Shown: positions 1-48,610 of the stretch, piece by piece
How positions within the stretch are numbered: position 1 is the stretch's first letter
Layout: every line of letters begins with the position of its first letter
Assembly: GCA_905221615.1 (NCBI GenBank)
Contig: CAJNDT010000139.1
Location: 142,501 to 206,500, forward strand
Direction of reading: 5' to 3'
DNA length: 64,000 nt
DNA from: Symbiodinium sp. CCMP2592
Lineage: Eukaryota > Sar > Dinophyceae > Suessiales > Symbiodiniaceae
Translations under genes and position numbers: made by a program
The notes under the pieces: model-generated
Databases searched by the model: none
What the model saw: only the letters and a program-made list of their open reading frames with translations
Told to the model about the DNA's origin: nothing

Positions 1-43
1 TCATAGAAGGAGAAAGCACCACCCTGCGCTCGATTTTCCACAG

Positions 44-3000
44 GAGACGGAAGCCGGCCAACGAGAGCAGCGGCGAGTGCTTCAGCCTGCGCGGAGTCCT
101 GTGCTGCGCCGCACCTCGGCCGCCTCGGCTGGGCACAGTGAACTGGGTAGCATTGTTTGGAACGCAGGTTAGCTTCGGCTTGACCTTTTACCTGGGCGGA
201 GTGCAGATGGAGGCGGGATGCGAATGGGGGAATGAGAAAGCATCGATGTCAGCCCCACTTCTGGCAAGGTGTCGGTGCTCACCAGCCTGCCAGTTCCCCG
301 AGCCGGTGAAGTCGATCTGTCAAAGTTGCCGCACCCCGGCCCTTGCGCAGAGCAGCGAAGGTTGGGGCAAGGGGTGCGGGTACGTGCCAAGGGCCATGCC
401 GAGTGCCCCGAGCTTCCTGTCGGCCTCGGAGGCTGCGTGAGCCGGTGCAGTGGACTTGCTGATGCTTTGCCTCAATGGTCCAGAAGGATCAGGCTTGCTG
501 CTGTGAGGCGGATCTACCGGTTATGACATCCTCTGCATCTACGCAGGAGACAGATCGAGTCAGGTTAGCTGTGCGGAACACAACTGAAAGGTTCAGCCAC
601 AGAAAGCATGCGGCGCTCGTACAGGAGGCTGGCTTGACATCCAGCACGGCGCCAGCAACGGGAGAGCCAGCTGTGGCCGCTGCCTACATGGTTCGAACTG
701 CAGCAGCAACAGGTGCAGCAGCATTGAAATGAATCGCAAGGAGTTTGCCTGACAGTAAGGCCGTCAGCTCGCCGCCATCCACCACAGTTCCAGTCGGAGA
801 AATTGGTTACGTGATTCCAAGAAATGACCAGTGTCCCAAAGGCCCGCAGCCTTGGCCGAGTGTCCGAAGACGTCCGAAGTGTGTTGGTGTGGTATTTGCA
901 GCAGAAGCTTTGACATGATCAGGCACGGATCAGGTCGCTTGCCTTACTTTGGCGGCACGTGCAGATTGTAGAGCTTGAGTTGTAAAAGATATCCGGCCTG
1001 TTGGTGAGGTCATGGACTTGCAGATGTGTTTGGAAGCTGCAGCTTACCTGAAGAAGCGGCTTGACTGCTGGGGCATCGTGTGAGCAAGGATGCTCTACAT
1101 CCTGTGCGGATTTTCTGCCTTTGAGGAAGTTGATGTCAAGCTCCATATTTACTGCGGAGCATGACCCTCCGGGCTGTATTTACCGATCTTCGGACCGGGT
1201 GATTCAGCTGCAGGAGTCAATCAAGAGCGAAATCCATTGCTTTGCTTCGGAGCCCTCTCGACAGAGCGGACGGCGGTCGCTTTGTGGGCTGCATGTCTTG
1301 CGCTCTTGACTTAGGACATCTTCTTCAATGGTCATCCGGAAGGAGGTCACAACCCGGATCGACGGCCTGTCTGCCGAGGAAGCGCGTGTGGGTGGTTGCC
1401 GTGGCTTTCCAAGGCTGAACAGACACGAAGAGACCCACTCCATGGTGGCTCCGAGTCAGCAGCTTCAAAGCGGAAATAGAATCTGGGCCGCCCTTCCGAA
1501 GCCCAACACACTGGCACTGGCAGGAGCCATTGGCCTTTCCGGCATCTCGCAGCAGAACATCAAGCCCGTTGCTGCTTGGGATCAGGCCAGGCGGCGCTCT
1601 TTTTGTTTCTTCGTGTTGGGTGGATTGTTGGCTTGTTTGAGCCTTTTCGGGCCTCTGCAAGGCTCCCGAAGCGATTCGGGAAGAGGCCAGGCAGAGACCG
1701 TGCCGTTCTGCAGGGATGTCGTGGACAAGTCCACTCAGGGATGATACAGGAATTGCTGTTCGGAAGGGAAAAGTATCTATCTTGACTGCCATCCAAGCCA
1801 GGCTTCTCGCATCCGCCTGTTCTGCTTTGCATGGACGCCATTTCGTCCGAGCGACGAGGCCATTCATCAGGTATAGTGAGTGTAATGTGGTCAGCAAGAG
1901 CTGAGCTCAGCAGGCTCGTAGCATAGGGCCAGATGTGCCACTAGCACGCATCAGCAATGCTGAATTTGAGAGATGCTCGGGAGTCCCTGCCTTTGCAGAG
2001 GCGGTGCTTCAAGAAGTGAGGACACAGTTCTCCAAGTGCGATGGCCATGCCTTCTTCAGCGCCTCAGAGACGGAAAGGTATGTGAGGCACGCACTTGTCT
2101 GGATTTTCGGCAGACACAAGCAGGTGTGCAAACGACTTGGGATTTCGGGGATGAGGATTGCTCAGGTGATCGTCATCCACATGGTGAGACGGATGACGTG
2201 ATCATTGTGAAAGTTCCGGAGCAGAGGGTGCCAAGGACAGATGGCCAATGGTTGCGTTGGCCTCAGAAGCCATTTTCGGACTTGGTGGGCCTGTGTTCTC
2301 TCTTTGGATTCAAAGTCATGAAGGTATCACCGCAACATGGTCGGCTTGATGCCCACATGGACTCATCTTCTGAAGACCGGAATGGCAGAGGAGTACGAGA
2401 CTTGTCTTGGCTGGCCCTGTCTTGCGTTGATGAGGCCTTTCTTCAGTTTCGCTTTGGTGGAAAGACTCGCCCTTAACTTGAAGATGTGTCAAGGACTGGG
2501 TGTTGAACGCCGAGTGTGGGCCTCGGCCAGGAAGCTTCGCACATGCACCGAAGCGGAGTGGAGGCTGGACCACTTCACGAGTCCCAGCAGGTGCCGCTTG
2601 GGCATCGTCAGCCGTTCGGCTGCAAGATCCCCCTTGAGCCCAAACCCTCTGTCTATCTCTGTCTCGCAGCCTTGGAGGCTACCTTGAGAACTTGAGGAGC
2701 GGCTCCGGCAAAGAGCAGCTTGGCAGCTCTTGAGTATTCCTAGCGCAAGCAGGGTGAGTTTACTCCGAATCGCAGGCAGCGCCTTGCCAGTGGTGCCCTG
2801 ATGTTGATGTGGGGGAATGCCTTTGCTGCCAGGCTGCAGTCAAAAACTCTCTGACAGCGACGCTTTGCGCAAAGTGCAACGTGCTTTGAGCAGCTCCGCC
2901 GAGGTCTTCAACAAGAAGATGGTGACCTCAATGCGTGAGCAGTGGAAGTTTCTCGGGGTCACGGAGAAAGAGAAATCGGTCGGCGTCGGATGCCCCCAGT

Positions 3001-6000
3001 TCATGCGTGGGCGGCAGGAGCTGTTTCAGGGGCATCGAAGCAAGCGAGCAGCTTCCTTGCATAGTAATCTGTGAGATTGCGTGCAGTGCTACGGGCGATT
3101 GCATCAGGAGTGGCCTCAACATTGCTCTCAAGACATCGTGCCGCTTCTCTTGCATGCCGAAATGGTTTGTTTTGCACGGTGCACATAGGCCACTGTTGAT
3201 CCGGCAGAAGCAGGAGCTTAGCCGCTCGCACTCTTGGACTGCCAGCCTACAGTCCCTCCTGTGCTCTGCAAGCCTTCCTGCTTCGGCCAAGGTATCCGAA
3301 CATGCTGGACGGAGTGATGCGAGGACAGGCGGAGGCAGGCTTTCGGCACAGCTGGTGTCCAAGTCACCAGTGGCAAACAAAGCAAGTTTGGGGCTTTTGA
3401 GCCTTTTTCTTGAGGCAGTTGGAAGATCTGGCTGCGGTCAGCCGGATGCCACCAACGGGCTTCTCAGTTGCGGGCAGTGGCTTCAACTCTGTGTCCTCAG
3501 CCGGAGCCTACAGTTCTAATCATCCGAGGAGAGGTGTCCTCTTCCAGTTGGGCTGCTGGGAGATGCAGAAGAATCCGTTTGGCATGTCGGAGGAAGGCCT
3601 TTTCCTGCGACATGCTCCAAAGCATCGAAGTCTTGGGATCTTCTGTGGTCAGGTGAAATGGATGCTATTCGGGAATTTGCCATCATCCAGGGCATGAAGG
3701 ACCAGCTGACGGGTGCCTTACATCTTGAATCTCTCATCTGGCAGCCAGTCTGTGACCCGGCAAGGATCAAGGAGAAGCGCGGAAGCGGTATGCTGGAACG
3801 GATCAAGTGCCCCGCCATGGCGAATCACGATCCAACGCCGGTGCTTAGCTTTGATGCGTACCGCAGACACCGTGGCTGCAGGCTGACAATGTGAAGCTTT
3901 GGTTTTCCGCCAAGAATGTTCCAGATCCTCGGATGCACCCTGATAAGGCTATATATCTTGTTCTGGTGCACAAAGAGTTGTCTTGCTGTACCTGTGCAAG
4001 GTCATACACCACATAGTGAGTGCCGACGTCCACAAGCTGGCCCGTGAACTGCTGGACCCAGAGCCAGAGCTCCAAAAAGAAGCTACTATTTGCAGAGTGT
4101 TTGTTGCAAGTCGCAGAGTGGGAGGCCAGTGCGGCCAGCAAGCAGATGGAAGAAGGCAGACCAGACTGCTCCAATTTGTTGCCGTTTGCTTCTTCGTGAC
4201 CTGCGAAAAGAGGACTCGAAAACGCTGCGGGGCTGGCCTTGTCCTCGGCTCTCGAGAGTTGCGCGCTTATTGCCGTGGCTCAACGAAGAGAGAAGCTGCG
4301 ATTCAACGTGGAGCTTGTCGGCATGGCGGGGGGGAGGGAGCACATGCTCTTCTTCGTCCTGAAAGCCCGAAGCCATGACCTCGCATGCCTTGGGAAACTC
4401 TGCAAGAGCACGAGGTTCCTGCATCGATGGCATCATCATTGAAACGATCCTGTCAGGACGCTCCCTCAACACAGAACGTGTCCTGGCGCGCGAGAGCTAA
4501 GAGCTTGGTCCGCTTGGTGCTTTGAAAGCCGCAGGATCTTGAGTCAAGCCTGACGCAGCTGCGGGCTTGCCAGAGCCCCAGGTCCCCAAGACCTGGCGCG
4601 CAGCATGAGCCGGGCGTTAGCCGTGTTCTTGTCCTTGTTTCCTCAGGGTGTTCGTGACGTTGCTACTTCAGGCTTCCAGCCGCCCATGGCTCCTTCTGCA
4701 GACTCTTTGCGGCCTTTGCGCTTGCTCCTCCTGGCAGTGCAGCACGCCCGCGAGGTGCTGTGTAGCAGCACTTTCATCCTGTCTACAGTCTACAGTACAG
4801 AGTGCACCAGAATGTTGACCGAAGTTTCTACGTTCGTAAGGGTTCATCAGGCAACATTACGTGCTCGATCAGCACGTGTGGCCGGCCCACTAAATCTAGC
4901 TGGAAGTCATGCTCAAGGTTTTGCCCCAAACCCGGGCCCGACCAGGGACCTCGGCCTCCGTCGCGAGCCTTCGGGAAGTGTCGGAATTTCGGGAATGCCG
5001 CCGAAGGCGTACAGCTCTGACCCATCGATTTCCATCAAGGCCGCGACAAAGACGTCCCTTGGCTCCGAAAGACGGGAGACCCTTTTGGAAGACTGACTAC
5101 ACTATACCTGCTCGTCGCGTCACTTCAGCTCACTTCGCGTTTTGCAACCTGGGTCAGATGATGTGATTCCTCTGCCCAGCAGACCAGGAGCGGTGAAGAT
5201 ACAGAGCAAGCAGAGGCCGTGAGTTCTTGCAGCGCAGCGCAGCCCTGTCTGTGTGTGTTTTGGAACTGTACGCACCTATTTACTGGGACTATCGGCCGTT
5301 TTCTCTGCCTGTGTACCTGCTAGCTCTCGAACAACAAGCATTGAGCTATATTGAGCTGCCAGCTCGAAAGCAAAGACCCTCATTGCAGGAAGTCCTTGCT
5401 GTGCCGCAGCTTGGACTTGGGCGCGAAAAGCACCTGAAAACCTTGCTGGGAGGCTCAGACTCGGCTCATAGGCTTCAGAGCTCCAAGGCTTCAAGTGTGG
5501 TGCCCTCTTTCGCGACTGGCTTGTCTGCCGGCTTTCTCAAGAAAATCGTTGCGGACCCATGCCTGGCGAGAATTTCACTGCAAAGTCTCAGTGAAGCAGG
5601 AGGTATCATTAAGCATCAATGGCTGCCCAAGAGCATGACAAGATTGCCCAAGGTCGGAGATTCTTCCACTGTCACAGATCCATGATGCTCTTCAGTACAT
5701 GCCTTAGCAGCCACCGCAGTCCGGGCCTGTCAAAGTGTTCGACACGGCTGCTCATCGAAGTCTGCTCGTGTGAATGCAGCGTACCAACACTTCCTCGCCC
5801 AGGCAGCATCTAGAACAACTTCCAAGTTCATCTGCATCTCCACTGGCACCCTTCACCAGGCAGTGAGGCACTCGGTACTCGTACGTGTAGGGCGCTGCAT
5901 GTTTGATTGCTTTGCTTCGACCACGCAGGGCACGTGCAAAGTTTGCGTGGCCCGGGTCGGCTTGAACTGTGGGCCTGCAATAACGGCTTAGGATCCTGCA

Positions 6001-6100
6001 GCTGTCCAGGGCTCTGCTACTGGGCGGGCTTCAGGCAGATGGTGGTAAGCACTCTGGATCGTCATAGACGCGCTCCATGTCTACCGTAGTCCTTTCAGGC
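44..6100 (+). CDS. MDN1: Probable upstream (linker) exons of midasin, boundaries unclear
   Basis: The stretch just before the certain midasin exons has many short + strand open blocks with splice-like edges. Examples are an exon after the acceptor at 41-43, a block around 549-650 (ETDRVRLAVRNTTERF), 1030-1074 (MCLEAAAYLKKRLDCW), 2011-2078 (AVLQEVRTQFSKCDGHAF) ending on GTATGTGAG, 2340-2575, 2880-2970, 3980-4110 (SADVHKLARELLDPEPELQ) and 5540-5680. No family motif could be matched. The midasin linker is long and poorly conserved, so assignment rests on position and strand only. Some of these blocks may be chance reading frames. Confidence 0.4.
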
Positions 6101-6179
6101 CTCCTTGGCAACGGCACAGGTTTCGCCTGATCCTCATAAACATGCAACCCGATTCACGGACGGCACGAGTCTCGGTCGG

Positions 6180-7650
6180 ATAAGGTTTGAGCTTCTTCGG
6201 CTGGTATGCTTCCTGATGGAGCCTTCATCTGCATGCTGTTGCTTCCGTCCACCACCTCACAAGTCTCACACACCCTCCGTCCAGGAGAAAGGCCTCAACT
6301 CCAAAGAAGAGGAGGAGGAAGGGGAAGGTGAAGGCCACACTCCGCAAAGCCTGCCATCAAGAGAAGTCGGATGGAGACTTAATTGCCCAGGCGAGGGTGG
6401 CACGGAGTGGCAGACTGGGACTGGCATGGGTCCCTTGGCACCTTAGGATGGCGGCTTTGCTCCGTTCAGTCCGTGTTGCCACAGCATAGACACGGAGTTG
6501 AGCCCTCGTAAAGTTCCATCACCAGTGAGTGAGCACGTCTTCGTTTGATGTGCTAATGCTGTAGTCTGACACAACCGCATCTCGGAAGGTGAGGGTGAGG
6601 GCATGAAGGATGTTACGGACGAGATCGAGGAGCACCTGCCCCTGTGGAAGAGTGGGCTAGGCGGCTAGGCGGCCCGGCCTAAGAGGCTTGTGCCTGAGCA
6701 GGACGATGCTCAGCTCGAGGGCACTCGCAACGAGCAGCAGGAGCAGCAGCACTGGACCCAGGGTGGATCCTTACATCTCTGCAGAGTTTTTCTCGAGTCC
6801 CTGCAAAGAGGCCGGAGCCTGAGCAGCCCAAACCGAGCGAGGACTCTTTGTCGCTCTGTCACTACACCTTTTTTTGTCATGAGCCGTGCATAGCCGTGCT
6901 GCTCCGTGCCGCTCCGTGCCGGTTGCAGGATAATGCGAGGGAGGTGGGCTTCGACTTAGACACGGAAGCAAAAGCCATGCCACAGGAGGCGCATGAATGT
7001 TACTCAGATTTGTCGAGGGCATTGGCAATGAAGCAGCTCTAGGAAGATGACAAAAAGCAAGATGAGGAGAAGGAAAATGAGGAGGAGCTCTTGCCTCAGC
7101 ATTCCACTGGCCAAGCCGCGTTTGCGGAAATACTGCAGCAGTGTGGCAGTGTGCTGTCACCAGCCGTGCCACATGTTGCTCGGCTGGCGTAAACAAAGCT
7201 TCACACCTCTCCAAGATCAGAGTCACGTCAAGTTCAGAGCTGATTGTGAGGCAGGATCTGGATCGTCAACAAGGCAGGCCCAAGACCATGAAGCAAGAAG
7301 CAGCTGACGATTCTGTGCTTGTTTCTCGTGTGGTGGCAACTGCTAGTGACGGCAGGTGATGTGGACCTTTCGAAGGGCGGCATGCTCGACGAGAAGTTAT
7401 GGAACGGAGAGGACGAGGACAGAAAGGGAGCTATCACTGTCCCAATCGCAGCAGGCTGCTGGCAGCTGGCTTGCATGTAAAGCTGTATCTGCCGGAAGGA
7501 CGACAAAGAAGATGAGAAAGATGGCGATCGCCCCAGCGGTTTTATAGAATAGCGATCTCGGTGCCAAGGGTGCATTGCTGGAGATCGAGGAGATGAGCCT
7601 GAGGAGAAGGAGACGGGACCGCAAGAGGACATCGAGGCGCCAGACCCGTC
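6180..7650 (+). CDS. MDN1: Midasin exons: entry to the Asp/Glu-rich region
   Basis: Successive exons read FELLRLVCFLMEP (about 6187-6225), EKGLNSKEEEEEGEGEG (about 6286-6335), GTEWQTGTGMG (about 6397-6430), GEGEGMKDVTDEIE (about 6590-6633), QDDAQLEGTRNEQQEQQ (about 6698-6750), DNAREVGFDLDTEA (about 6931-6972), EDDKKQDEEKENEEEL (about 7044-7091), DVDLSKGGMLDEKLWNGEDE (about 7360-7425) and DEPEEKETGPQEDIEAPD (about 7591-7645). The order and the phrases GTGMGEGEG.KDV..IE and LDEKLW match the start of the midasin acidic tail. The junction DEIE|QDDAQ joins in frame if the donor at about 6634 is GA (GAGCAC) and the acceptor is the AG at about 6697. Confidence 0.85.
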
Positions 7651-7957
7651 TTGACAACTGGCATTTGTCTCACGGTTTTGCTTACCCCACGCTGTACCGG
7701 CATGCTCCAGGAACCTCGGGAATCATGACACTAGTTCAGACTGCATATTGCTTACCCTATTATGATTATGATTATTGTTATTATATACACCTGCAAAAGT
7801 TTCCATTTTCAGTTGTCAGATGTGCAATGCCCTGCGGAGCGACTTGGTTATCTGAAATAATTATACGAATTCGCACGACTCAGCTTCGGTACGCCGAAAG
7901 CAGGCCTAACAACGGAGCAAGTTGAATCGAACAAAGCAAGAACCACGTGACTTGCAC

Positions 7958-8000
<43 letters not shown>

Positions 8001-11000
8001 TTTGCACTGCTCTGGAATAGCTGTACACTGTTCCTAAATAAATGTATGTCTTGCGACGAATCCTATGATCGGCTTCTTCGAAATGCTGTTTGCATCCTGC
8101 AGGTAAGGCCACATTGGCAGACCACAAGTGACCCATGTATCGAGTCCTGCAGCAAGCGCTTGCCAATCAGCTGGGCATAGTCCTAGGACTCTCCGGCCAA
8201 CGCCTTCTTGGTACTTTCAGATCGAAGGGTGGTACAAATATGAGCAACGGTCGTTTCAGCACTGTCTCGTGGTTCGAAGCAAGGCAGCCGAGACTTGACC
8301 TTTGGGCAATGATAAACACTCTTTTGTTCGGAACAGTCGCGAGCCTGTTAACGGCCGCAGTTCAAGTTCTGCGCGGCAAGCACAAAAGATGATACAAGTG
8401 CTTTGCGAGTCAAGTGCGATTGAAGAGGGTTGGGCATGTTAGGCTTCAGGGTGTCTAGGGTTTGTAGTTTTGGGGTTTAGGGTGCCGTGCCAGGGTGTTT
8501 AGTGTTACAGGTTTGGGTTTCAGGTTTTTGGGTTCAGGGTTGCACGGTTTAGAGCTAGTGATTAATTGCAACAGATCTCAGGGTTATTCAGATATAGAGA
8601 GTTTTGGGTTCTAGGGGTTCTACGGGTTCACGGTTTTGAGACTTCACATGGTGTTTAGGTTTTATGGTTTTCGGGTTTGAAGTCTAGTGGGGTAGGGAGC
8701 GAGAGAGAGCGAGCGAGAGAGAGAGAGAGTGTGTGTGTGTGTGTGTGCGAAAGAGTTGAAGAAGCGTGTGTGAGAGAGAGAGGTGTGTGTGCGCATGCTA
8801 GTGTGTGTGTGTGTGCGCGTGTGTGTTTGGTGATGTTGATGTCCACTGTGAGTGCATATACATACGCACACATACAGACATACAGCATCAATCCACGCAT
8901 ACTTGGCACATGGTTGCAACTGCTCAGCCTAGTCGCAGGCACATGGAGCGCAGGGCGAGGGCGAAGCAGCAGGGCACTTACGGGTAGGATGACACTTGCT
9001 TCTCTTTTGATGCGCAGGTGCCAGCTTCTGGAACCTTTGAGCTTTGATCTGACCTGGGATCAACTCCCGACCTGTACACAACGCACTCAATCACTAGATG
9101 TACCGAGACTGGCTGGACTAGCTCGTCTACACGTCCAGACAGACAAAGTGAATGTAGCAAGGTCATCGTGAGAAGGCTTCGGTTCAGCATGGTTCAGCAG
9201 CTCTGCCGTGGTGTCGGACGTGGTTGAAGCCAGTGCATGTGCTGAAGGACACAACTGCAAAGGACGAGAACGACAGCCCCTGCCTGAGTTCCAACGTGTC
9301 ATGTGTCTGTGGTCGATACCACCTTTAAACCTTCCGGCGCCTCGCAGCTTGAAGGCAAGTCAAAGAAGCAGCCACCTTTAGAGGATCAAAAGGACGACAA
9401 GGCCGATGCCAAGGAGGCGCCGGAACAGGACTGAATGAGGGATTGCGTGGACGCGGGTCTTTGTTTCTGTCTCCTGGCTAGCAGTGCAGGATCCACAGGA
9501 ACCCGACAAGACGGAGTTTGAAGACAAGGATGCGCAGTTTGACGTCCAAATGCCCCAAGGGTGCGGGTCCGAGTGCGTGCATCGGTATCGGTATTGCTTG
9601 CTTTATGCTATAGCCAGGAACGATGGTGCAGACGGCGAAGGCGAAGGCGAAGGTGAAGGCCGGCCCTGAAAGCCATGGACAGCGAGTGCGGAGGGGCCGT
9701 AGATGTCCCCACGACCTGCCAGTGTCGCGATTTCATGGTCCACGGCGCATCTCAGCACAGCTCAGGTGAGGGAGAAGGCCAGGGCGAAGGAGAAGGAGAT
9801 GCCGACTCAGACTTCATCAAGGACATGGAGGGATTGGTGGGTATGTCTGTGCTGACCTGACGGACATCGAATCCGTTTAGACTGGCAAGCAACTTGTGCG
9901 CTCGGAGTCCGACATCGATATGGACGGAGATGGGGAAGGTGGTGACGACGGCGAAGGATCAGAAGGAAGCAAGTGTGAAGAGGCACGCAGCATAGAAGTT
10001 GTCAACCGTGGAGTGGGGCTAGAATGCGCAGAGACACAGACACATACACGCTGACACAAAATGTCAGACAAGTGTGTCAGTTTGCATGCAGGCATGCAGG
10101 CATGCATGCATTCGTGCATCATTAACTACACAGCTGCGCACATAGATCTACATACGTGCCTACGGGCATACATCAATACATGCGCACGTCGCACTTCGGC
10201 TTCTTAAGGACATTGGTGACTTGGATGCTGCTGATCCCGGAGTCAGCTGCCAAGCTGTGTCTTCGTACGGACGTACGGATGCTGCTGCAATGGCTGCAAG
10301 ATGGAGGAGCTTGGCACAATTGCATGCAAGGTCCCTGAAGAGAAGCTTCCAGACGATGCCGGCGCTGAAGAGCTTTCGACTCAACAAGCCGAACCATGTT
10401 GGTTCCATGCTGCTATGTGCAAGATTAAATATGTTCGCAACGGCTCTTATTGGCAGAACGTACTGCGATGTGCACGCAGACTATCAGAACCTACTTGGCC
10501 GAGGCAGGAAGGAGTGGAGCCCTGCGTCACTTCCTGAGACGCGTTGAAAAGAAGGCCAGAGCTCCTGAGTAAAACTTTTCCCAGGTCCAGGGAGAACAGA
10601 AGCCCGAAGAGCAGCAAGAGCAGCAGGACAGGCAGAACATGCCAGCGGTGGCATCCTCCCTAGGGGACCTTGGAAGGATCAGGATGGTGAGAAGCCGCAA
10701 AACGTCGATCCTTCGAAGGCGCCGGGCGCCCAGTCCCGGGCAGTCCCGGGCAGTGCCGGGCAGCTCGTCGCTGCGTGTCTGCGTCCGCTGCTCCGCTCCG
10801 TGAGCAAAGGCAGAGGCCCGAGGAGAAGGCGAAGGCTCCCGAAGAGCCGTGCGAGCCAAAGAACTCGCAGTGAAGAGCCACGGGATACTAAGTGTTGCTG
10901 CTGTTGCTGTGGCTTGTCCCCGGTCTCAGGCTGAAGCAGGGAGATCCTGGAGCTTCTGGCAAGGTGCAAAGGGCCCAGTCCCCTTGCTCTCACCAAGAAG

Positions 11001-14000: not shown

Positions 14001-14389
14001 CTTCAGGCGACGGGTGACAACATGGACGTCGACGACGAAGGTGAAGGTGGCTGGAGGAAGAGGCTGAGATCCAGCTCGCTCTAGTGGAATGCCTATTAGT
14101 TCCCAGTGGAGAATGTCTGGTTTGTGCAGGTCTGAGCACGAAGCTATGCAGCTCTGGGGTCAGCTTGGTCCTTAGCGGGCCATCTCAGGGTCGGAATGTC
14201 CATGCCTTGTTGGCTAAGACAAAGACTGTTTTCTGTTCTTCGGAAGTTTTCCGAACGACCTCCAGAAATCTGCTACGTTTCGTAGGTGCTAGAGCAGCCA
14301 TCCGCTCCACACGGTGCACACGCGATGGCTTGTCAGGACAAGGTTATTCCCTGCTCTTAGCAGCAGTAGTAGTGGTAGTGGTAGTGGTA

Positions 14390-14465
<76 letters not shown>

Positions 14466-14595
14466 CAGTGGCAGTGGCAGTGGCAGTGGCAGTGGCAGTG
14501 GCAGTGGCAGTGGCAGTGGCAGTGGCAGTGGCAGTGGTAGTGGTAGTGGTAGTGGTAGTGGTATGGTAGTGGTAGTGGTAATGGCAGTGGTAGTC

Positions 14596-14677
<82 letters not shown>

Positions 14678-17600
14678 CCGCCACGGCTCAGACGTTTTGG
14701 AAGTTTCGCGCTGGCTTTCGAACAGGCTCTGGATTCCAACCTTGCGTTGCTAGAGGTCTCAAACAGGCCTCTCTCCGAACGACTAAGGGTTGGTTCCTCA
14801 CGCTGATCCATGTGCCATGTGCCAACAGTTTGCGTCTGAGCCGCCAGGTCCCAATTCCTGGACCCAGTACCCTGTCTCAACACGGGCCCACTGGGCAGGC
14901 GGTAGGGTTTCCACTAGCCGCGTGGTGGAGGGAGTCACTAGGCTTGCCTTGTGACGAAATAGCGGATGGCGCTGCTCCCAGTGCACTCACACAATTATTC
15001 TCAGATCAGGAAGAATTCTTTCAAGCATGTTTGCCGACAGGTGGCTGCCAGCCACCAGCCTGTCTCTTACCGAGGTCAGGTTCTGACCCCGGCTCTTCTT
15101 AGGCGGATGGGCAATTGCCCGCCACAGCCTGGCCCCAAGCGGTCTTTTGCACCACGATCTCGGGCAGGTCAGGCCACCAGGCCCCTCCGAGTACTGTCCT
15201 GGAATGCCGGCCATCTTGGCCAGCAACAATGGTCGGAAGTCAAGTCATGGCTCTCCACTGAGGCCAAACTCGTCTGCGATGTGTTAGTCCTGCAGGAGAC
15301 ACACTGGCAAGCCACGGCCGAATTTAGTGTTGCAGGCTGGTATTGCGTCTCGTCTGCATCGGCGGCTGATCCGAAAGCCTCTAGGCGAAAGCAACGCGGG
15401 GGCAAGGCCCACAAACAGCCACCTGCAGAGGCAATGCCTACTGACGATAAGACGACCCCACCCCGCAAGGAGCCCTCAACAACTCGCGCGGACGGGTCAT
15501 GGTCTTCCTGTCCCCACACATCCTGCCCAAGAGTGTGCGCTGGCAGGAACATGTCATAGGCAGAGCCCTGGAAGTCAGGTTTGACTGGCATGGGGCCCGC
15601 ATGACGCTAGTTGCTGTCTACCAACACGTTTGGTCCCCGTCCAAGCAGGTGCAGACTAACCGTCAGGACAGAGCGCACGTCCTGAAGGCTCTCGGCCGAT
15701 GCGTGCAGCGAGTGCCGCACAGAGACACGCTCATCCTGGCAGGAGACTTCAATAGCTCCTTACACAAGCAGCCTAGGCTGGTAGGTCCCGGGACCATCTG
15801 CCCACAAGAACCGAGGCCCGACGAGCCAGAGCTAACCAACTTTCTACTCAATCATCGCTTAGTTGCTCTCAACACGTGGAGGCCTCAGCCGACACATACA
15901 TTTTGGCAAGGGGAAACGCGCACTCAGATTGACTTTGTGCTCACGAGGGAGGTCTCTGCTGGTGGCTATGCCAAAGCCTCTACGCCGCTGGCGGATTTCC
16001 CGCTGGGCAGCTGGAAAAAAGGCGGGCACTTGCCCATAAGTGCCACTGTCAAGCCAGTTCGGCACTGGAACCTGCCTGCTCCTCAGCTACAGCAACATCA
16101 CTACGACTCTGCTGCCCTGCAAGCAGCTGTCAGGGACAACACGTTGCCAGCCCAGCAAATGCTCGAATGGGTCAAAGCACGCCTCACCCCGGACATGCAG
16201 CCGGCGTCTTGGGATCGTCTCCTTGGCGAAGCGACATCTAGGTTTTTCCCTAAGACCCCGGTGGCAATGCCAGATAGTCCGGAAACGCGCATAGCCAGAC
16301 GCATGTGGCGCTCTGCACGTGGGAGCAATGCTCACCCCAGGGCAGAGTCATCGCCGGATGATGAGGCCCGACAAACCCTGTGTGAGCAGCATAAACAAGC
16401 GGTTAAGCAGGCTCGAAAATGCCAAACAAAGCGGTTTCTTGCTGAGGTGGATCAGGCTCTGAGCCAGGGCGACCAGCACCTTGCATATCAGACACTCAAG
16501 CATCTCCGTCCGTGGAAACCGGCCTTGAAAGCACAGCTCAAGGACGAGCAGGGCTTCCTGCTCAGTCCCGCGAACGAACTGGATGAACTGGGGCAGTATG
16601 CAGCCAAGGTCTTCGCGGCGCATCCACAGCTTCCGTCAGACTCGGGACTGTTGCCCCGCTTGCCACAGACCAAGTTAGCGAAGCACATTGCCTCGATCAA
16701 ACCTGGCAAGGCAGTTCCAAAAGGAGCGGCACCGGCCGCAGCCTGGAAACTTTGCGCTCAGCCGGTCTCAGAAGCACTTTCGCAGTACTGTTCCAGTCTG
16801 GCGCAGGACCAGTCCCTGGACGACGATCTGACACGCGCGGATCTTTGCCTCATACCAAAACCGGGTAAACCGGCAGACAAGCCTTCCCAACTAAGGCCAC
16901 TGGGCATCCTTCGCCCGGATGCTAAGGGACTGGCGGGCACGGCCAAGGAGCTCCTGGAGCCTCTCACAGTGCCGTACATGAAGCCACTGCCCCAGTTTGC
17001 GTACCTCCCTGGGAGAGGTCTCTCTGACGCGCAGAGTAGAGTGGTTCAGCACTTGAGGGAAGCCAGGCAACTCTGTCGCAATGCGAATCTCACCCGAGCA
17101 GATCAACAGCGGGGACAATGTCCTGTGGGTCTAGTCGGCGGCATCACTTTCGCTCTTGACCTTTCACAGGCATTCGACACTGTCTCTCGCAGTGAGATTC
17201 TGTCCCTGCTCGATGAACTGGGCGCGGACCCCTCCCTTCAGAAGCTCATACATGGCCTTCATCATCGGTCCAAGTACAGGCTTCACTCTCAGGGGGCCTC
17301 CAAGGACGTGGAAACCACCACGGGCATCAAACAAGGCTGCAAGTTGGCCCCCACGTTGTTTTCTGTGCTCACGGGCCGCCTTCTTCATAGGTTGATCGAC
17401 ACGTTTGGCTGGGACAATGTCCGCAAATACTTCACAGGATACGCGGACGATTTCACCATGCATCGCACCATCCGCAGCAAAGCTGACGTGGACGCAGCTC
17501 ACAAGATGATCCTACAGCTTCTGTCGGAGGTGGAGAAACTGGGATTGCGCGTCAACCCGGCCAAATGTGCCATACTCGTCAAGCTTAACGGCAGGGAGGC

Positions 17601-20600
17601 GGAGGCCATAATTCAGAAACACACCTGCTGGCTCCCCGACTCGGAGGGCAAGCTACAGAGGCATTGGCGCTTAGGCAGGCACAAATCTTTCCCTGCCTAC
17701 AGACTTGAGACGCAAGTCAAGTACCTGGGCATCCAAATCTCCTATGGTAACTTTGAAATGCAGACGCTGCGCTTCCGCATAGCAGAGGCTGCCAAAAAGC
17801 TCCAGCAGGTTAAGCGATTCGTTTACAATCGCCGTACCGCGGGGCCCATGGCCAGGCTGAAGGTTTGGTTCACCACCGTATGGGCCACTTTGGTCACGGG
17901 ACTTCCCGAAGTCGGCCTCACGGAGGAGACGGCCAGGCATCTCAGAGGATGGTATGCGCACAAGATACGCTCAGTCCTCAATCAACCTGCTCATGTAAGC
18001 CACACGCCCACAGCAGACCTGTACCGTCTGCACTCAATCCAGGACCCGGTGGCTAAAAAATTCAAGCTAGGATGACTTCCAGACTTAAGCGATTGTGTAA
18101 AAGACCCAGCAACCCCGAGGCCATCCCCTCAGCCCTGCCGGCGAACATTCTAAGCGCATCCTCGGTGACGCGAGGCCCCTGGGCCCAGCTGGGTCCCTCA
18201 GCAACGAGATCAGAAGCACACCGGCAGCCGTCACGGCCAGCTACATATGGTGATGTCACGCAAATGAGTCACGTTGTACAGGACCTGCAGGACATGCTGA
18301 GAGAGGTCGAAAACCTTCCGGCATCTACTGAAGCCTCGCAGCAGAGACTTCATTCCTGCCCTCACTGCGGGTCTGGCTTTGTCTCTGCACACGGCTTACA
18401 CATGCACGTTACGCGAATGCATCGAGAACACGTGTCGAGGTACATTCCCCCCTCCTTTGATCGCAGTCGGCATTCTAAGGATGGTCTACCTGTCTGTTCT
18501 GCATGCGACAAGGCCTTCCATCAATGGAAAGGCCTACGCGACCATCTCTTGTCGGGGCCTGCACGCAGCCGGATCGCCTGCGCCAGATCTCCCTCACCAC
18601 GGAGGAACAGCTGCAAGGTCAGGCCCTCCAGGGCTTGGCGGCCTTCCGAGCTAAGGTGCAGAGCTCGCCAAGCAACCGACTCAGTGCCCTTGCCACCCAG
18701 CCCGAAGCTCAGGAGCTCAAACATCGGTGCATCTTGTGCGGTTTTTGGACCCCGGACCACACCAAGATGAAAAATCATCACAGACAGGCCCATGCACTGG
18801 CCTGGCAACGTGACGGTCCGGCAGCAATTCAGCTTTGCAGGGCATATTCAGTGCAGATGATCAAGGGGCACCCGTGTCCCTTCTGTAAGCTGCAGGTATA
18901 TGACAAACGCAAGCACCCGGAGCAGTGCATTGTCCTGTTTCAGGTCCTGCTTGGGTGGCACAAGGTACAAGGCACCGACAAGATGCGGGAACAATGTTCC
19001 AAACCTCATCCAAAGACCGCGGTGACAATGTCACTTAGTGGTTTTTTCGCGGCTGCAGACAAGCCAGCTGCCGTGGCTTCATCGTCACCTGTCGCCATGG
19101 CAGCGACAGGTGCCGCCGGCAGCACTCTCCCGCCGGGCCTGTACTCTCGTATGCGGCACATGTTGAACTCGGGTAACACATGCTACGTCAACGCGACCAT
19201 TCAAGCCCTCTTAGCGGCGCTTGACTCTGCGTCCAATGTAGCGGAGCTGGAACCACTGGTTCAACACTGCACAAGCACGGAAGCGGATCCAATGGATGCG
19301 AGGCCCATCAATCCTCCAAGCCTCTTCGCTCTCCGGTCCCTAGTGCCAAGATGGCGATTCGATGGCCGTCAACAAGACGCCTCCGAATTTGCAACGTATC
19401 TGGTAGAGCACAACACGGGAACTCTGCAACCAGCTCGCTGGGAGGGACGCACCAATGGAGTGCCGGAAAGTGAGGACGATGGTCTCACGCCGCTCCTGCT
19501 GCCGCTTTCCTCCGCCTGTCGCACACTGCAGCAGGCCTGTACGGCTTGGTACAACCACATGTTCCAGCGCGCCCTGTCATGGGCCCCAGACATCTTACCA
19601 GTCACTGTTGCTCGATGGATGGATGGCACAAAGCGACGAACCCCGTTAGACCTGCGCAGGCACATCTCTCTGCCGTCTTGGACTGAGGGACAGGTCCGGC
19701 AATGGCACCAGTACGCAGTCATTTCGGGAGTCTTTCACAAAGGTGCTGACATACACACCGGGCACTACCGGTCCTTCTGGATTCATCCCAACGGAGGCGT
19801 ACTATATGTGGGTGATGACGCCACCCGCCCATACCCGGCCTCTGCCTCAGATCGCAAACATGTAATGGAAGACTGCTACCTCCTTTTCTTGAGAAGACAG
19901 GAGTGACTCTGACTCACCCTCAAGGGGTGAGTGCTGGCCCTCCCCGACTAGGAACGCGTGCACCAATAGGGTGCCTGTGCGTGGGAAGGCCGGACCCCAC
20001 AATAGGTGGGCATGGCCCTCCCCACGTCAAGGCCAAGCATGCTTTAGGCATGCGCAGGCTTACCCGCAGCTTTTAAGGCTGACCCAGCATGGCTGATAAG
20101 ATTCACAGCCCAGACCACCAACATGGTCGCACCACCTCTCCCCTAGCTCCGGATTCACAAATGGGAGAGCCTTCCGAGCCTTTTGGGGTCGACACTCGAC
20201 GCCAGACATCTGGCGGCGGCAAGCAGCGGTCAGGCAGAGCCCTGCATGCCATCTCCAACGCTGAGCTGGCTCAGACTCTGGGGCCAGTGGCAGCCGCTCC
20301 TGGCATCAGTGAGTCCTACCTGACACATATGGTGCCAATGGCAGAATGCGCAAGTAGCAGCGGAGGCAATGCCTGTTTCTTCGTGTCTCTTCCAAGACGG
20401 ACTGAAAGCCCTTCTGCTTGATGCCGCCGCTGTCAGTCGGAAAAACATGCCCAAGCCTGCTGCCAGACACGTTACAGCTGTGCGCGTCGTCGGATAACCA
20501 CCTGAAAACGGCCTCAAGGCAACCCCCCTCTCCCGGGCCGGGAGAGAGGGGTTGCTTTTAGGGAGCTCGGTGCTACAGGCCTCCCGACGCAAGGCCGTTG

Positions 20601-20934
20601 CGGAGCTGCTGCCGCAACCGCATTGCTGCCAGCATGCACCACGAGGATCATATCCCGACATCAGGTACGTCACAACAAGCTGGAGCTCGATATTTTGCAG
20701 CCTGCAAAATAGCTTTGGCTGATCTCTGCCAGTTCGCTTAAAGCCTGTAGGCCGCAAAAGCTCTCTCATCGGTCTTTCTGACCTGGGCTGATCAGCTATA
20801 GGGTCTGAGTCAGTTTCACACCAAAGTGAGTGCACCGCGGCAATCGCCCGCTATGTGCAGAGCCCGCTCGCACAGCGTTCAATAAATAAATAGTGGTAGT
20901 AGTAGTAGTAGTAGAAGTAGTAGTGGTAGTAGTG

Positions 20935-20966
<32 letters not shown>

Positions 20967-23900
20967 AGTGGTAGCAGTAGTAACAGTCGTAGTAGTGGTG
21001 GTGGTGGTGGTAGTAGTAGTACCAGCAGCAGCAGTAGTGGCAGCAAGAGGAGGAGTAGCAGTAGCAGTATGGTATAGTAGTACTGTTAGTGCATTGTTCT
21101 TGATCGAGAAGCAACTCTGAGAGCCCGGGCTGTGAGGTTGGAGAGAAGCACAGCGCCCTTGTCTGCTGCTCTTTGTGAACAGCTCAGGATCGAAACGCAA
21201 TTTTTCCGGGGCTTAAAAGTGCCTCTGCAAGTCTTTAGTCTTACTGCGAGATTTCCGAGAGCTGGTTTCGATCGTGAAGCTTCGACAGGACGATCCTGGA
21301 GCCCACTCTCAAAGGCAGGAAACATCGCGAAGCTTCTAGAGCATTGAAACGTGTCCATTCACTCCGAAGTCCCCACGTTTTCCTTGCTCGTGCCGTCATA
21401 GGCATGCCAATGCAATCTCAGAACCGTTTCTGCGATCCAACTGCAAAGTTTCTGGTCAGGTCGTTTGCAGGGCTACTTCCGCACCGGAAAGCGTATCTCG
21501 ATGAGACGCGCTGGAGACTCACTTGTTGCTGCTGTGCGGAACAAGTATCTGTCTATCATACCGCTACTGGTGTAGCGGAAAACAAGTCATTAGTGAGGGA
21601 CGGGATAACTGCCTGGAGCATCTCAGAGAAAGCAATGCTTGAGGTGATCCCATTCATCGCCTCGAATTACCGCAGGGACAAGATTTGGCTGAGACGGACG
21701 AAGCCCTCGAAGCGGGAATACCAGGCAGGGAGGTTTGGCGGTCACGTTCTGCAGCCGGACGCCCCAACATAGCTTTGGCCGCGGCCCTTGACCAACAACC
21801 GGGCAAGAAACAAGACAGGTTTGGGTACTCATTCTGGCAAAGTGAGCCTGAGTAACAGTCATGTCGAACCGAGGCAGCAACTGCAGGTTTTCCTCTTTTG
21901 TTTTGATGTTCTTCACCCTCAGATCGTTGTGGCCATCGACAACTCTCGGAGCATGTTTCAGCCTCAGATATTCCCGTTTTCGCCCATGCCATCTGCATGT
22001 GCGAGAGTGTAACTTCGACAAGGAAAGAGTGCGGCGTCGGCCCCAATGCGCTGCAGACTCTCTGCGTTCTGTGCCAGGCGAGTGCGGACCAGTTGCCATA
22101 CAGCTTTGCTGAACTTTGCAGTCACGTCACCTGTGCCGAAGGCATTGGCCCAACTCGAAGTGGGTGAGTATGCTGTTCTCGCCTTTGGCAGTGCCGGGTT
22201 CTAAAACCTCCCGCAAGTGCTGTGCTTGAATGCAAGTGCATGCGCCGATTGGACATCATGAGGCAACTCCACGTGTGCTTCTGCCTTTGGGCTCCGGGTC
22301 GCAAGCTCATGAATTTTGCGAACCTGCAATGGCTCCGGGTCACATGCGGCATGGTGTGGCCTGAGGCAGCCGCACGCAAGCAGCTTCAACTGGACGCAAG
22401 CCGGACCTCTGCTCCGGGAGAACTGGACTCAGAGCCTCCTGCATGTCTGTTGGCTCCCTTCTCGTGTTCGTTCCGTCAGGTTCACCTTTGAGGAGGAATC
22501 TGTTCAGTTGCGAGCTCAGAGATACTGGGAGATCTGAAATTTGAATCACTCATGCGATCGTTTCGAAGTTGCCTGTGGCTTGCCGAGGCATTTTCCGAGC
22601 AGCAAAGTGTAACATAGACAGCGGTCATGTTCTTCGGCAAGGTACCAGGATGTTCAAGGTAAATGCAAAGTGTCGGCCTGTAGGCTTTCTGTCGTCTTGG
22701 CAATGCACAGGCGGTAGGCAAAGGAAGAGCCCGCAGCTTTCCAACACATCCCTGAGCACCAGCTTTCTGAGGAGCCACAACCGGAGTCTGGCGGACCTGA
22801 TGCGCCTCAGCTCCGAGCTCTTCGACGAGCCTCCTCCCCAGAGACCACACGGCACACATGGCACTATGCGCAAAAAAGGTTCAAGAAGATGAAGTACTCG
22901 TGGCAGGGGCTGATCCGTCTGGAGTAGCACCTGAATCACGGAACCACAGCGAAGCATGCTGTTTCTAGTTGTCTTCCGATCTAGGCTACTTGTAGAGGCG
23001 AGCAAGACCTTTGGACCTTCAAGACTCGGCCTTAACTCCAAACTTCAGCTTGCGACGACAGGCGCAACGGACCAAATCCTGCGCGACCATTCAGCCAGAC
23101 CCTAAGGCTGTGCAGCATTTTGCAGACCATCCACAGACGTCTGGGCAAATTCAGTATCCAGACGGCACCTTGCCGATGAAACACGCTGCAGTCCGGAACG
23201 ACCAGGCCAGATGAGCATCATCATCTCCGATGGTCGCTTCAACAAGAACAAGGTACGCCCATGGGTTTGGCGCCCAGTCCTTGCAAAGTTACTGGAGAAG
23301 CTCCGGCTAAGCCAGGCCTCGCAGTCAGCGATACTAGTGGCATTTTTCTTAGTAGCGGCAGTGAGAAAAGCCGTGAGTGCAGAGGTGCATGCTGCGCTGG
23401 CTCGGCAGCAGCTGCCACTGCTGATCATCGTGGATGCAGAATCTGCCCACGACTTGACTGTGGCACAAGCTTGGAGAGGGGCAGCTTTCGTTGCCTGCCA
23501 AGGAAACTCCGGCAGCGAACGTACGGAACTCGGCGGGCTGCACAGCGGGGCTTCACTGGGATATGTGGATGCCGTGAAGGCCTCGGGCTCCAAACGAAGC
23601 GTCTTCGACCTGCGTGCCGTGACTTATGAGGGAGGCAACTGCCAGGCTCACGGGCTTGCCGCAAGGATGACGTCTGAGTTGCTTAGACGTTTGCTGCCGG
23701 CGAATGATATTCTGCTACTCTTGGGCCGGGCGATGCATTGCTGCACTTTGATGCATCCCGATTGCAGGTCGTTCCGTATTTGTCCGACTTTCCATTCCCC
23801 TACTACGTGGTCGTGCAGGACTTGCGTTGACGTGCCCCTGCTGATCCATCAACTGTTCTTCCTCGACCGTCTCAGGACTTGCAGACTTTGCCCGCCATTC

Positions 23901-26031: not shown

Positions 26032-26310
26032 AGGCGACCGATTTGTGTTGCATCTGTGACAACCTGCTGCTTCATGCCTCTTGTCAGTTCCGTGCTAGAT
26101 ATTCTGGGAGTCAGCCCTTCATTCATGCAAAAGCTTCCAGGGTCCTGCACCCGAAAGATAGGACTCCTCGCTGTGCTCCTTGAGCCACGAGCCTCCGGAG
26201 CTCTGAGGATCCGCGAGGTCAAGGAGCGCTCTTCGCCGAGTGGGCCCAGGTGCAGCAGGGCGCAGTGGGTAGAGCAGAGCGAGCTTGAAAGATACTCATT
26301 GAGTTTTAGC

Positions 26311-26377
26311 GCTTTAGGGTTTGGGGTTTAGAGGTTCAGGGTTTAGGGCCTAGGGGGTTTAGGGTTTGGGGTTTTGG
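26311..26377 (+). repeat. Interstitial telomere-like repeats (TTTAGGG)
   Basis: About nine GGGTTTAGGG-like units in 67 nt in G-strand orientation, better preserved than those at 8.4 kb. Confidence 0.85.
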
Positions 26378-42000: not shown

Positions 42001-45000
42001 TATATATGCACCAGGGTCTGGGATCGAGCGGTGCAACAGCGCACCGTATTGCCCAAGACCCCAGTGCTTCGGTATATGGCCCATGGCTGGTGGGAAGGGA
42101 GCACGCTGTTTCCAGCCCAGATGTCGGACATGTGGATGTTGTGCATGGCCTGGCTACCGCGATGTGACGGTGGGACATACTGCATTTCCAGGGTACAAGG
42201 ACTTCTGTGCATGTGCTACAACGCTGAGTGTTATGGAAGATGCCCCGTGGGTTGATTTGCAGCCGGCAGCAGACTACAACGTCAAGGGTTACCGGTGGCA
42301 GGATGGTCCCGCGGAGTTTGCATGTTGCAATGACTTTGACGCTGCAGGGATCCTTTGGTTTGACAACACTAGCTCAACTGATCTTGCGGCCAATCATGTG
42401 CTTTGCGATGGCCCGAGTGGGAATACGCTTTGCCGAGATGAGAATGCCACGACGGCGAGGCATGATTGCCCGGATGGGAACACATGCATTGCGTGCGTAG
42501 ATCCAGATGGCATTGACAGTGTGGTCGTCATTTCGGGTGGGGAGGCTGTTGGTGGCCTTTGCCAGAATGCACGCCAGCATACTTGCCCTGACTTTGTGGA
42601 ATCCTTCTTTCTTGAGTCAGGTGAGCCAATGGCTAGCAGGGGCATGGTTTTGTTCACGGAGCTGCCTGACACAGTGGGCATCTCCGCTGTGTGGCGTGGA
42701 GTGTGGGAGCCTCTGCCAGAGACGGCGTCTGGTTCTGCAAGTTGTGTCGGGAGTTCGGTTGGTGATGCCTGCTGGGAGCTTTTCTGCATCGGGCATGGCA
42801 TCCCGCCCGACAGACAGCTGCTTTACAGGACCAGCGGTGGTGGCGATGATGCCTTTGATCTGTCTTGCGTGGTTCTCGCGCATGCGGTCGTGGACCACAG
42901 GTGCACAGGAAATTACTGGTTGCTTCTCTTGTCAGACCTGCTCTTTGCAAGTACGGAAGCTGCTACTGACTGTTTGGCCCAAGGACCGGATGCGATTGAG
43001 GGCAGGATCGTTGTTTCGGTCTTTGGTCGACTCGTCAGGCAGCTGGCCGACAGCTACGGAGCGCTCGGCGTAGGTAACGCTTGCAGCACAGCAAGTTTGA
43101 GGCATGCTAGAGGTTCCGGACCTGGCTTTGGATATCCGCTGCTGGAGCGCATGCTGCTGGACGGAGAGTTGAATGAAAGTTGGCATCATCGAGTTCCGTA
43201 CGAATCTGGTGCCATACCACTGCATCCGCTTGTGGACTACATCCCTGAAACGGTCATCCTTACGGGATTGGTCCGCCTTCAACTGGTCGCGATCAATATG
43301 GTTGTCCCTAATCTGGTTGCCATGTTGGTTACGTCTGTTGTACTCCACAGTACACACACATGGCCCGCTGCATTATGTACTATAGTAATGTCATACAGAG
43401 ATGCCCTTTCGCGGTCATTCATGGGGGGCCTGACTGGCACAGGTGCGATTTTGCAGACGACGTTTGCTTGTATATGTTCCGCTGAACCGGCAGATTTCTG
43501 CACCAGCTCGCATAGTGGGGGTGAGTGCATACTGCCGCACTGACTTAGTCAGTGTTGTGATTTTGGTTTCGTTTGGTGGGCTAAGGCTGTTGAGGGACGG
43601 TTTTTCGCAGTTGCGCCGGTTAAATCCCTTCTGCCATGCCCACCGGCTGAGTGCAAACTGGGCGACGGTTTATTCTTTCAAGTCCAGATTTCTGTTCCAG
43701 CCAATCCCCAAGTTTTAATTAGGTGCAAGCATCGGCTGCGTCAAACTTTGACTCAACGCCACGAAAGAGAAAGAGAAAGATATATATGCACCTGCATATT
43801 TATGTGTGTACATCTATATCTATATCTGTATATATATATATTCACATATAGATATATATATATATATATATGTATTCACATTATAGAGCGCCCATCAGTC
43901 AGGCGGGTGTAGGCTTGGATCCCCATGTAAGTGCAGGGGCGAGGTGTACTGTTCCCTTCCCACGTGAAAAGACATGGTCTCTCATGCCCTAAACCCCTAA
44001 ACCCTAAACCCCTAAACCGCAGTTTTTCGCCAGGGCGGCGAGCCCTTCCTTTTTCGACTGCTGATGCTGCACCTCGTTGCCAGGCAGTGTCCGGGGCAGT
44101 GCCAGCAAAAAATGAAGCAACGGAGTCGAGTCCAGCGGAGGGATGTCAGGAGCCGCGTTCACCGAAGAAACCAAGAGTTTACAAGCTGCGAATAGAGTGC
44201 CCATGGTGCCAAGCCCGAAATCCGAAGCATGTGCCCTTCGAAAAGTGTGAACATTGAGAGCCCACGACCCGGTGCCTCTCCGGGAACGTTCTGTGTGGAT
44301 CAGGTTAATCGGTCGGCATCAACTGCAGGTGCTGAACTTGTATCCGCCCCTTGGCATCCATCGATCCAGTTCCTTCCCAAACTGGAGCACTTGGTCTGGA
44401 ATTGGGCAATAGAGCCGTAGCTGGCATGCGGTGTCGTGAAGATTGTTGAAGGGTCTCCGAGAGGGTAGTCAAGCAGGTCCAAGAAGGCACACGTGATTGT
44501 TAGAAGCCGGCCTCCAGACTTGCGAAGGTTCTTGCAGAAGTATTTGGCTGCTGTCTCAGCTAAGTGCCCAAAAGGAAGAAAGTCTCAGTCGGAGAATGAC
44601 TCGGTCAAAGGTCCCAACGCAGAAGGAGGTTACGAAAGTGATGGCCGCGTTGGTAGAGGTGGTTCAGCGCCCCAGCAAGGGCCGCAGTGGATTTGTGCAC
44701 ATCGATTGCCAGGCATCGCATCCCGCTGTGCCACCTGCCAGCCTGGCTCGTGGCAACAAGCTGGTAGCTCGTCGCGAATGTCATACGCGGCATCAGCAAG
44801 CGCTTTCTGCCAGGACGACGTCCGACCGGTCATCTTGCACATAGCAGCTCGCCTGCACAGTTGCTTCGCGCAGCCTTGGGCAGTTGAAGTGCAGTCTGCT
44901 CTGAGACAGGACAGGATCAGGTACCGTTTCGTATCTACATACTCAATCCTTCAGATGGTGATCGGAATTTTGTTGACTCGCCAGCGTGTTTCAGTGTGCA

Positions 45001-48430: not shown

Positions 48431-48610
48431 CATACATGCATGCTGCATACATGCATACCTGCAACCTGCAAACATGCATCCAGCACACATACGTGCATGT
48501 TACGTGCATACAGACATACATGCATGCATACATACATGCATACGTGCAACATGCATACGTACATACTTGGTTGCCTGCCTGCCTGACTGCATGCATACGG
48601 ACCTGTACTT

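Follow-up and report, generated by a model that had tools for sequence, protein, structure and literature searches.

A LINE family of Symbiodinium whose polypeptide ends in a ubiquitin-specific protease domain, and relatives with an overprinted reading frame

The window analysed here, a 64-kb stretch of the genome of Symbiodinium sp. CCMP2592, carries on its forward strand one copy of a LINE of ~6.2 kb (about 14681–20890), delimited by homology to other copies and flanked by two microsatellites. The 5′ array, of TAG/AGTGGT type (14365–14677), adjoins the element, and only about 285 bases lie between it and the first open reading frame (ORF). This frame (14966–15556, + strand) encodes the N-terminal part of the polyprotein and the first part of an APE-type endonuclease (EN), matching positions 1–54 of the Pfam profile Exo_endo_phos (E = 0.037, below cut-off), and is broken near 15.5 kb. 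The second (15499–18075, +) contains the remaining endonuclease (Exo_endo_phos_2, E = 8.9e-5, below cut-off) and the reverse transcriptase (RT; RVT_1, E = 4.3e-23), whose best matches in the PDB were 8c8j, an RNA-directed DNA polymerase chain (E = 1e-9), and human LINE-1 ORF2p (8uw3, E = 3e-9); its frame is broken at its end. Since the endonuclease pieces were found in two different frames, the copy is already broken at its 5′ side. Downstream lie first C2H2-like zinc fingers (ZnF; 18072–18770, +; zf-C2H2_4, E = 4e-5, below cut-off) and a last piece of 467 amino acids (18503–19906, +), which comprises a CILC (18728) and a CPFC (18875) finger, a short linker, a ubiquitin-specific protease (USP) domain and the stop codon. 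The 3′ UTR of about 1 kb (19907–20890, +), common to the copies, four of which are without about 140 bp of it, ends in AATAAATAAATAG directly before a TAG-type microsatellite (20891–21082) that represents the tail, the target or both. Elsewhere in the window, a 1.5-kb array (46952–48441) holds 185 copies of an 8-base unit (TTCATTCA), and short TTTAGGG/CCCTAAA-like repeats, which resemble plant-type telomere units, occur at 26305–26374 and 43987–44018. A tRNA search of the 64-kb window found none.

The sequence-only reading of this locus had described the last ORF as a USP-like deubiquitinase placed after the RT. The Pfam search assigned the ORF at 18503–19906 to the UCH family (peptidase C19) with E = 1.9e-10 and 41.2 bits, against a cut-off of 23.9. 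Judging from the Pfam match, the invariant residues and a profile alignment to USP12, the domain spans ORF residues 221–444 (19163–19834, +), with catalytic codons at 19181 (Cys), 19763 (His) and 19814 and 19817 (Asp), all on the + strand. The Cys box, the RQQDASEF block and the GHY box are as described in that reading, and the adjoining upstream ORF is indeed a LINE RT by its RVT_1 match. It had also reported several C2H2/C2HC fingers; C2H2-like fingers are present, but below the Pfam cut-offs in the window.

Searches of the window's own genome (1.098 Gb, 5383 contigs) yielded two intact family members, L039 (contig C63) and L040 (C715), in which EN, RT, fingers and USP are read through in single frames of 1647 and 1651 amino acids, respectively, beginning with MALLPVHSQNYSQ after one residue. 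Pfam matches above cut-off were Exo_endo_phos (2.4e-8), RVT_1 (7.5e-22) and UCH (8e-11) in L039, and the same three in L040 (3.3e-9, 7.2e-22 and 6.2e-8); in both, the first zinc fingers are in frame with the RT. Compared with these intact relatives, the window copy shows frame changes in the endonuclease (~15.5 kb), just past the RT (~18.07 kb) and in the finger region (~18.55 kb), the last being placed there because the ORF at 18503–19903 aligns to most copies from residue 16 onward only. Given the single frames of the intact copies, the three-ORF layout is the damaged form of one polypeptide; the separate third ORF of the sequence-only reading thus has to be given up, the ORFs at 18072–18770 and 18503–19906 being pieces of one protein. 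Termination-reinitiation at the ATGA of 18072, which would give a separate third ORF, was set aside, as the intact copies read through in one frame. The window element is therefore a frameshifted member of a high-copy APE-type LINE family, in which the intact copies encode a single polypeptide with the order EN-RT-zinc fingers-USP. Its assignment to the APE-type LINEs draws on an RVT_1-type RT with a YADD motif, on an N-terminal Exo_endo_phos domain above cut-off in L039, L040 and three members of related families (L012, L023 and L025; it is absent from the frame of L027, whose start is near the RT), and on dispersed copies that share a 3′ end.

With the window ORF at 18503–19903 as query, we found at least 91 copies (91 scored of 2393 candidates), and with the window RT at least 89 (89 scored of 3360 candidates). 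Among the matches listed, 73 of the 89 RT matches had a USP match less than 3 kb downstream on the same strand, with an RT-USP gap of 496 nt in 30 copies and 490 nt in 28, so that the fusion is retained by other copies. In 46 copies among the matches listed, RT and USP lay in open frames of equal length of at least 1560 amino acids, a shared frame being judged from equal frame length, strand and distance, and 42 of the 91 USP matches listed were in frames of at least 1640 amino acids. Four of the 16 RT matches without a listed USP partner were read: three had the USP region broken up and one ended before the USP. Among the matches listed for the USP-ORF query, 22 copies share one bit score (982.1), which suggests a recent expansion, and we infer that the window family spread recently. 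Relatives were also sought in viral contigs and in bacterial and archaeal genome contigs, and none were found there.

The ends of the element were defined by comparing the window with nine further loci (L030–L038). Homology among copies starts immediately 3′ of the 5′ microsatellite; it runs through the USP in all nine and, in eight, on through the 3′ UTR of about 1 kb into the TAG-type microsatellite from 20891, stopping at about 20.4 kb in L038. A TAG-type microsatellite directly precedes the element in all five family copies compared (the window and contigs C63, C715, C94 and C5295). This homology, running through the USP to both ends, places the USP inside a mobile unit of about 6.2 kb. 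Among nine other RT loci scanned, five have TAG/CTA-type microsatellite ends, seen at both ends in L012 and L013 and at one end in L022, L026 and L028. Insertion targeted to TAG microsatellites is thus possible, a target-site duplication being indistinguishable in such DNA. These copy data also decide whether a host USP gene came to lie by chance beside an old LINE, or was inserted once, as could be imagined from the many USP matches of the genome that have no RT nearby (11 of 20 fetched loci). The RT-USP linkage in 73 of 89 RT matches and the equal frames in 46 copies (both among the matches listed), homology through the USP and 3′ UTR to the tail in eight of nine loci, and the same domain order in copies about 25–31% identical in RT rule this out, leaving it a practically nil probability. 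The UCH match and the retention of the domain in other copies accordingly bear out the claim that the USP is no chance insertion.

We then considered more distant relatives in the same genome. A UCH search (149 of 1369 candidates scored, 148 matches) provided 20 loci that were fetched with their surroundings, 19 of them picked for long open frames. Nine contained an RT, and all nine also had the USP and an additional overlapping frame, termed ORFX and described below; in the other 11, the fetched stretch contained a USP and no RT. Of the nine RT-bearing loci, eight show one open frame of 1776–3013 amino acids within the stretch, some running beyond it, up to 3423. L012, L023 and L025 were above the Pfam cut-offs for EN, RT and UCH, and L027, whose frame starts near the RT, for RT and UCH. 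In the eight other copies with the same C-terminal USP, the RT is 25–31% identical to that of the window. No supported conflict was seen among the RT, USP and ORFX trees, the deep USP branches being unresolved. In L025, a stop-free frame (2–8938) upstream of the LINE endonuclease matches the Copia-type profile RVT_2 at residues 616–848; the LINE may lie within a Copia element or be read jointly with one. Contigs C994, C2844, C1987 and C3007 (L014, L015, L018 and L019) each carry several USP matches close together, where the USP is near the start of open frames of up to about 1,870 amino acids and no RT was found in the fetched upstream stretch.

Selection on the polypeptide was evaluated from dN/dS (Nei-Gojobori, own script), given here as point estimates without a significance test. 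Between L039 and L040, dN/dS was 0.043 in the RT (dS 0.92) and 0.126 in the USP (dS 0.62; 253 codons with 80 synonymous and 42 non-synonymous differences), and the catalytic Cys, His and Asp are present in both. Two other close pairs gave USP values of 0.169 and 0.115, with 0.042 and 0.022 in the EN and 0.061 and 0.076 in the RT, whereas their N-terminal regions were weakly constrained (0.376 and 0.628); in the pair L012/L022, which is near saturation, USP and RT values were 0.199 and 0.190. The USP is hence under less constraint than EN or RT (0.12–0.17 vs 0.02–0.08). Its dN/dS nonetheless shows purifying selection, and the catalytic residues are invariant in the nine aligned sequences; across a wider group of such LINEs in this genome, the USP is maintained by selection.

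The LINE USP is small, about 250 amino acids. UCH scored above the Pfam cut-off in all seven frames scanned (window, L039, L040, L012, L023, L025 and L027), reaching only 33–43 bits in the window's family. In an alignment of nine LINE USPs (the window and eight others), the Cys of CYxN, the QxDxxEF block, H-x-G, GHY and DD are invariant, and no CxxC..CxxC zinc site was seen; a further LINE USP, L050 on contig C1, departs from the nine in having CYxH for CYxN and EL for EF. The single window USP retrieved USP46, USP35 and USP12 as best PDB matches (E about 1e-3). A profile of the nine aligned to USP12 with E = 5.7e-20, matching at the Cys box, GHY and DD, the closest solved relatives by profile being USP12/46, then USP35 and USP7. 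Like human USP12 and USP46 (5k16, 5l8h), the LINE domains thus align at the Cys box, QxD block, GHY and DD; unlike them, they have a smaller core (272 profile positions vs solved chains of 331–376 residues), and overall identity is low. In a tree, one branch with 97/99 support separated 11 LINE USPs from 13 other USPs of the genome, in a limited sample with long branches flagged by the program and a comparison set in which 11 of 13 are without RT in the fetched upstream stretch, L001 and L007 being seen with 1.5-kb flanks only. Such a split would fit a single capture.

From these motifs, the C-terminal USP is predicted to be an active deubiquitinase. One might instead suspect a catalytically dead domain, or one that merely binds ubiquitin, given how far the sequences have diverged (18–28% identity between the window USP and the other eight) and the modest Pfam scores of 33–43 bits in the window's family. 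We regard this as quite improbable, since Cys, His and Asp are invariant in all nine aligned sequences and present in both intact family members.

In the related families, the stretch directly before the USP has a second coding capacity. ORFX lies in the +1 frame, overlaps the ZnF-USP linker and is open for 265–445 amino acids, with ATGs, in all eight loci compared, ending 263–297 amino acids before the end of the main frame (L012, 7049–8059; L013, 7264–8067; L022, 7379–8173; L023, 1745–2851 on the − strand; L024, 1733–2839 on the − strand; L025, 6816–8150; L026, 7124–8122; L027, 7198–8181). Main-frame dS in the linker is very low, at 0.106 between L012 and L013, against 1.06–1.93 in other segments, and 0.022 between L023 and L024, against 0.10–0.26, and linker substitutions shift from the third to the first codon position (with small counts in L023/L024). 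The ORFX proteins are homologous, all 28 pairs matching by blastp at 1.3e-9 or better. Read in the ORFX frame, two close pairs gave dN/dS of 0.102 and 0.098, whereas the main (USP) frame over the same columns gave 3.6 and 1.3; for two more distant pairs the values were 0.212 and 0.279 vs 1.8 and 1.4. When synonymous codons of ORFX were shuffled in six loci (L013 and L024 being left out as near-duplicates), a mean of 5–10 main-frame stops appeared where none is observed (P of 0.0014 or less, with a bias because the loci had been picked for long frames), which suggests that the main frame over ORFX is also kept open.

One ORFX as genome query gave at least 144 matches, down to 26% identity (143 of 1427 candidates scored, 144 matches), and 40 of the 148 UCH matches listed have an ORFX match ending at most 0.9 kb upstream. 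Among these listed pairs, the spacing is a multiple of three, that is, the same +1 relation, in 36 of 40; 17 lie in main frames of at least 1394 amino acids and nine in frames of less than 560, which close inside the ORFX-USP stretch. Two ORFX loci outside the UCH list, on contigs C2225 and C1 (L050), both have a USP next to them in the same frame relation. Searches of ORFX against Pfam (three copies) and the PDB (a profile of eight) gave no convincing match, the best E being 0.17 in each. In several copies, a segment close to the N-terminus is rich in Lys and Arg, as might be expected of an RNA-binding protein of the ORF1 type.

No ORFX match was found in the window or in the nine window-family loci searched, and the linker of this family shows no dip in dS between L039 and L040. 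In the RT tree, the family clusters with a copy that has ORFX, with 84/85 support only, which makes loss of ORFX likelier than primitive absence. We consider it rather probable that these elements form a LINE group of their own. Its coding unit would comprise one EN-RT-ZnF-USP polypeptide and, in the +1 frame over the ZnF-USP linker, the overprinted ORFX, with the linker amino acids nearly free and the frame kept open. The same DNA would then serve as a spacer in one frame and, in the other, encode a conserved protein that may be the missing ORF1p/RNA chaperone; the window family would be a branch that expanded recently, retaining the deubiquitinase and losing ORFX.

As for what the USP does, the reading that best explains the observations as a whole, with a probability of about 0.5, is that the EN-RT-ZnF-USP protein of the intact copies carries an active deubiquitinase protecting the element. 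The protein would be made in one piece and bind its own RNA, nick DNA, probably in TAG microsatellites, and reverse-transcribe there. Most likely, the USP would take ubiquitin off the element's own protein or RNP, or off host factors bound to it at the target, and the EN-RT chain would thereby be shielded from the proteasome or from ubiquitin-marked removal during integration. In the related families, the DNA that encodes the ZnF-USP linker would also be translated in the +1 frame, yielding ORFX as a second protein. As the USP is fused in cis to the replication protein, self-protection is the simplest role.

USPs cleave after the Gly-Gly of ubiquitin. One could envisage that the USP processes the EN-RT-ZnF-USP chain proteolytically, as the protease domain forms the C-terminus of polyproteins that reach about 3,000 amino acids; the finding of no ubiquitin-like domain at Pfam E up to 0.1 in six long frames (L023 and L025 within the fetched stretch) disfavours it, and we think it unlikely. 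The main rival to self-protection, though rather doubtful, is an active USP with a host target, deubiquitinating chromatin or repair proteins where the element inserts. Being fused to EN and RT, the USP would be brought to the nick, the best PDB matches are USP46, USP35 and USP12 for the single sequence and USP12/46 for the profile, and a ubiquitin-pathway role in transposition and repair has been proposed for other elements (PMC2836005). The similarity to USP12/46 is low, however (E about 1e-3 for the single sequence), and says little on substrate, and canonical nucleosomes are said to be rare in dinoflagellates (PMC5890265). Self-protection remains our preferred role.

Human LINE-1 ORF2p shares the EN-RT order and has a Cys-rich C-terminal domain; the window LINE resembles it in RT (8uw3, E = 3e-9) and differs in ending in a USP, which ORF2p is not known to carry. 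Dinoflagellate LINE proteins ending in USP-like sequence may be present in public protein sets. In the open-access literature, with subscription papers and preprint servers largely outside, no USP on a LINE appeared among the matches listed. Captured domains in other mobile elements offer three precedents. The SymbioLINE-Dnmt elements are Symbiodinium LINEs with DNMTs under purifying selection (Ka/Ks under 0.2; PMC5890265) and, like the window LINE, dinoflagellate EN-RT LINEs with an acquired enzyme; theirs is a cytosine methyltransferase encoded upstream in an ORF1 of its own, whereas that of the window family is a USP at the EN-RT C-terminus. No methyltransferase domain was among the Pfam matches of six long LINE frames scanned, and the words 'ubiquitin' and 'protease' have 0 occurrences in the main text of PMC5890265. 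Utopia-1_TSP and nematode NeSL LINEs likewise carry a cysteine protease of ubiquitin-like-protein type, but it is an N-terminal Ulp1-like protease in LINEs with a restriction-like endonuclease (PMC4640811), in contrast to the C-terminal C19 protease of an APE-type LINE in the window family; the six long frames had no Pfam match to an N-terminal Ulp1-like protease. Finally, Ginger1 DNA transposons bear a C-terminal OTU or Ulp1 domain, and a Trichomonas vaginalis transposase_11 is joined to peptidase C19 (PMC2836005). In these too, an enzyme of transposition carries a domain of deubiquitinase type, located at the C-terminus in Ginger1 and belonging to C19 in one case, but they are DNA transposons, whereas the window element is a retrotransposon.

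Mobile elements with captured enzymes are thus already known, and a USP in an APE-type LINE and an overprinted ORFX appear to be new variants. USPs in APE-type LINEs would thereby join Ulp1, OTU and DNMT among the domains that mobile elements have captured. ORFX would be a conserved gene missed by annotation that takes the longest frame only, and it may turn out to be the ORF1-type protein of these LINEs. If it is true that a LINE carries its own deubiquitinase, the ubiquitin system would be a direct partner or opponent of LINE replication.
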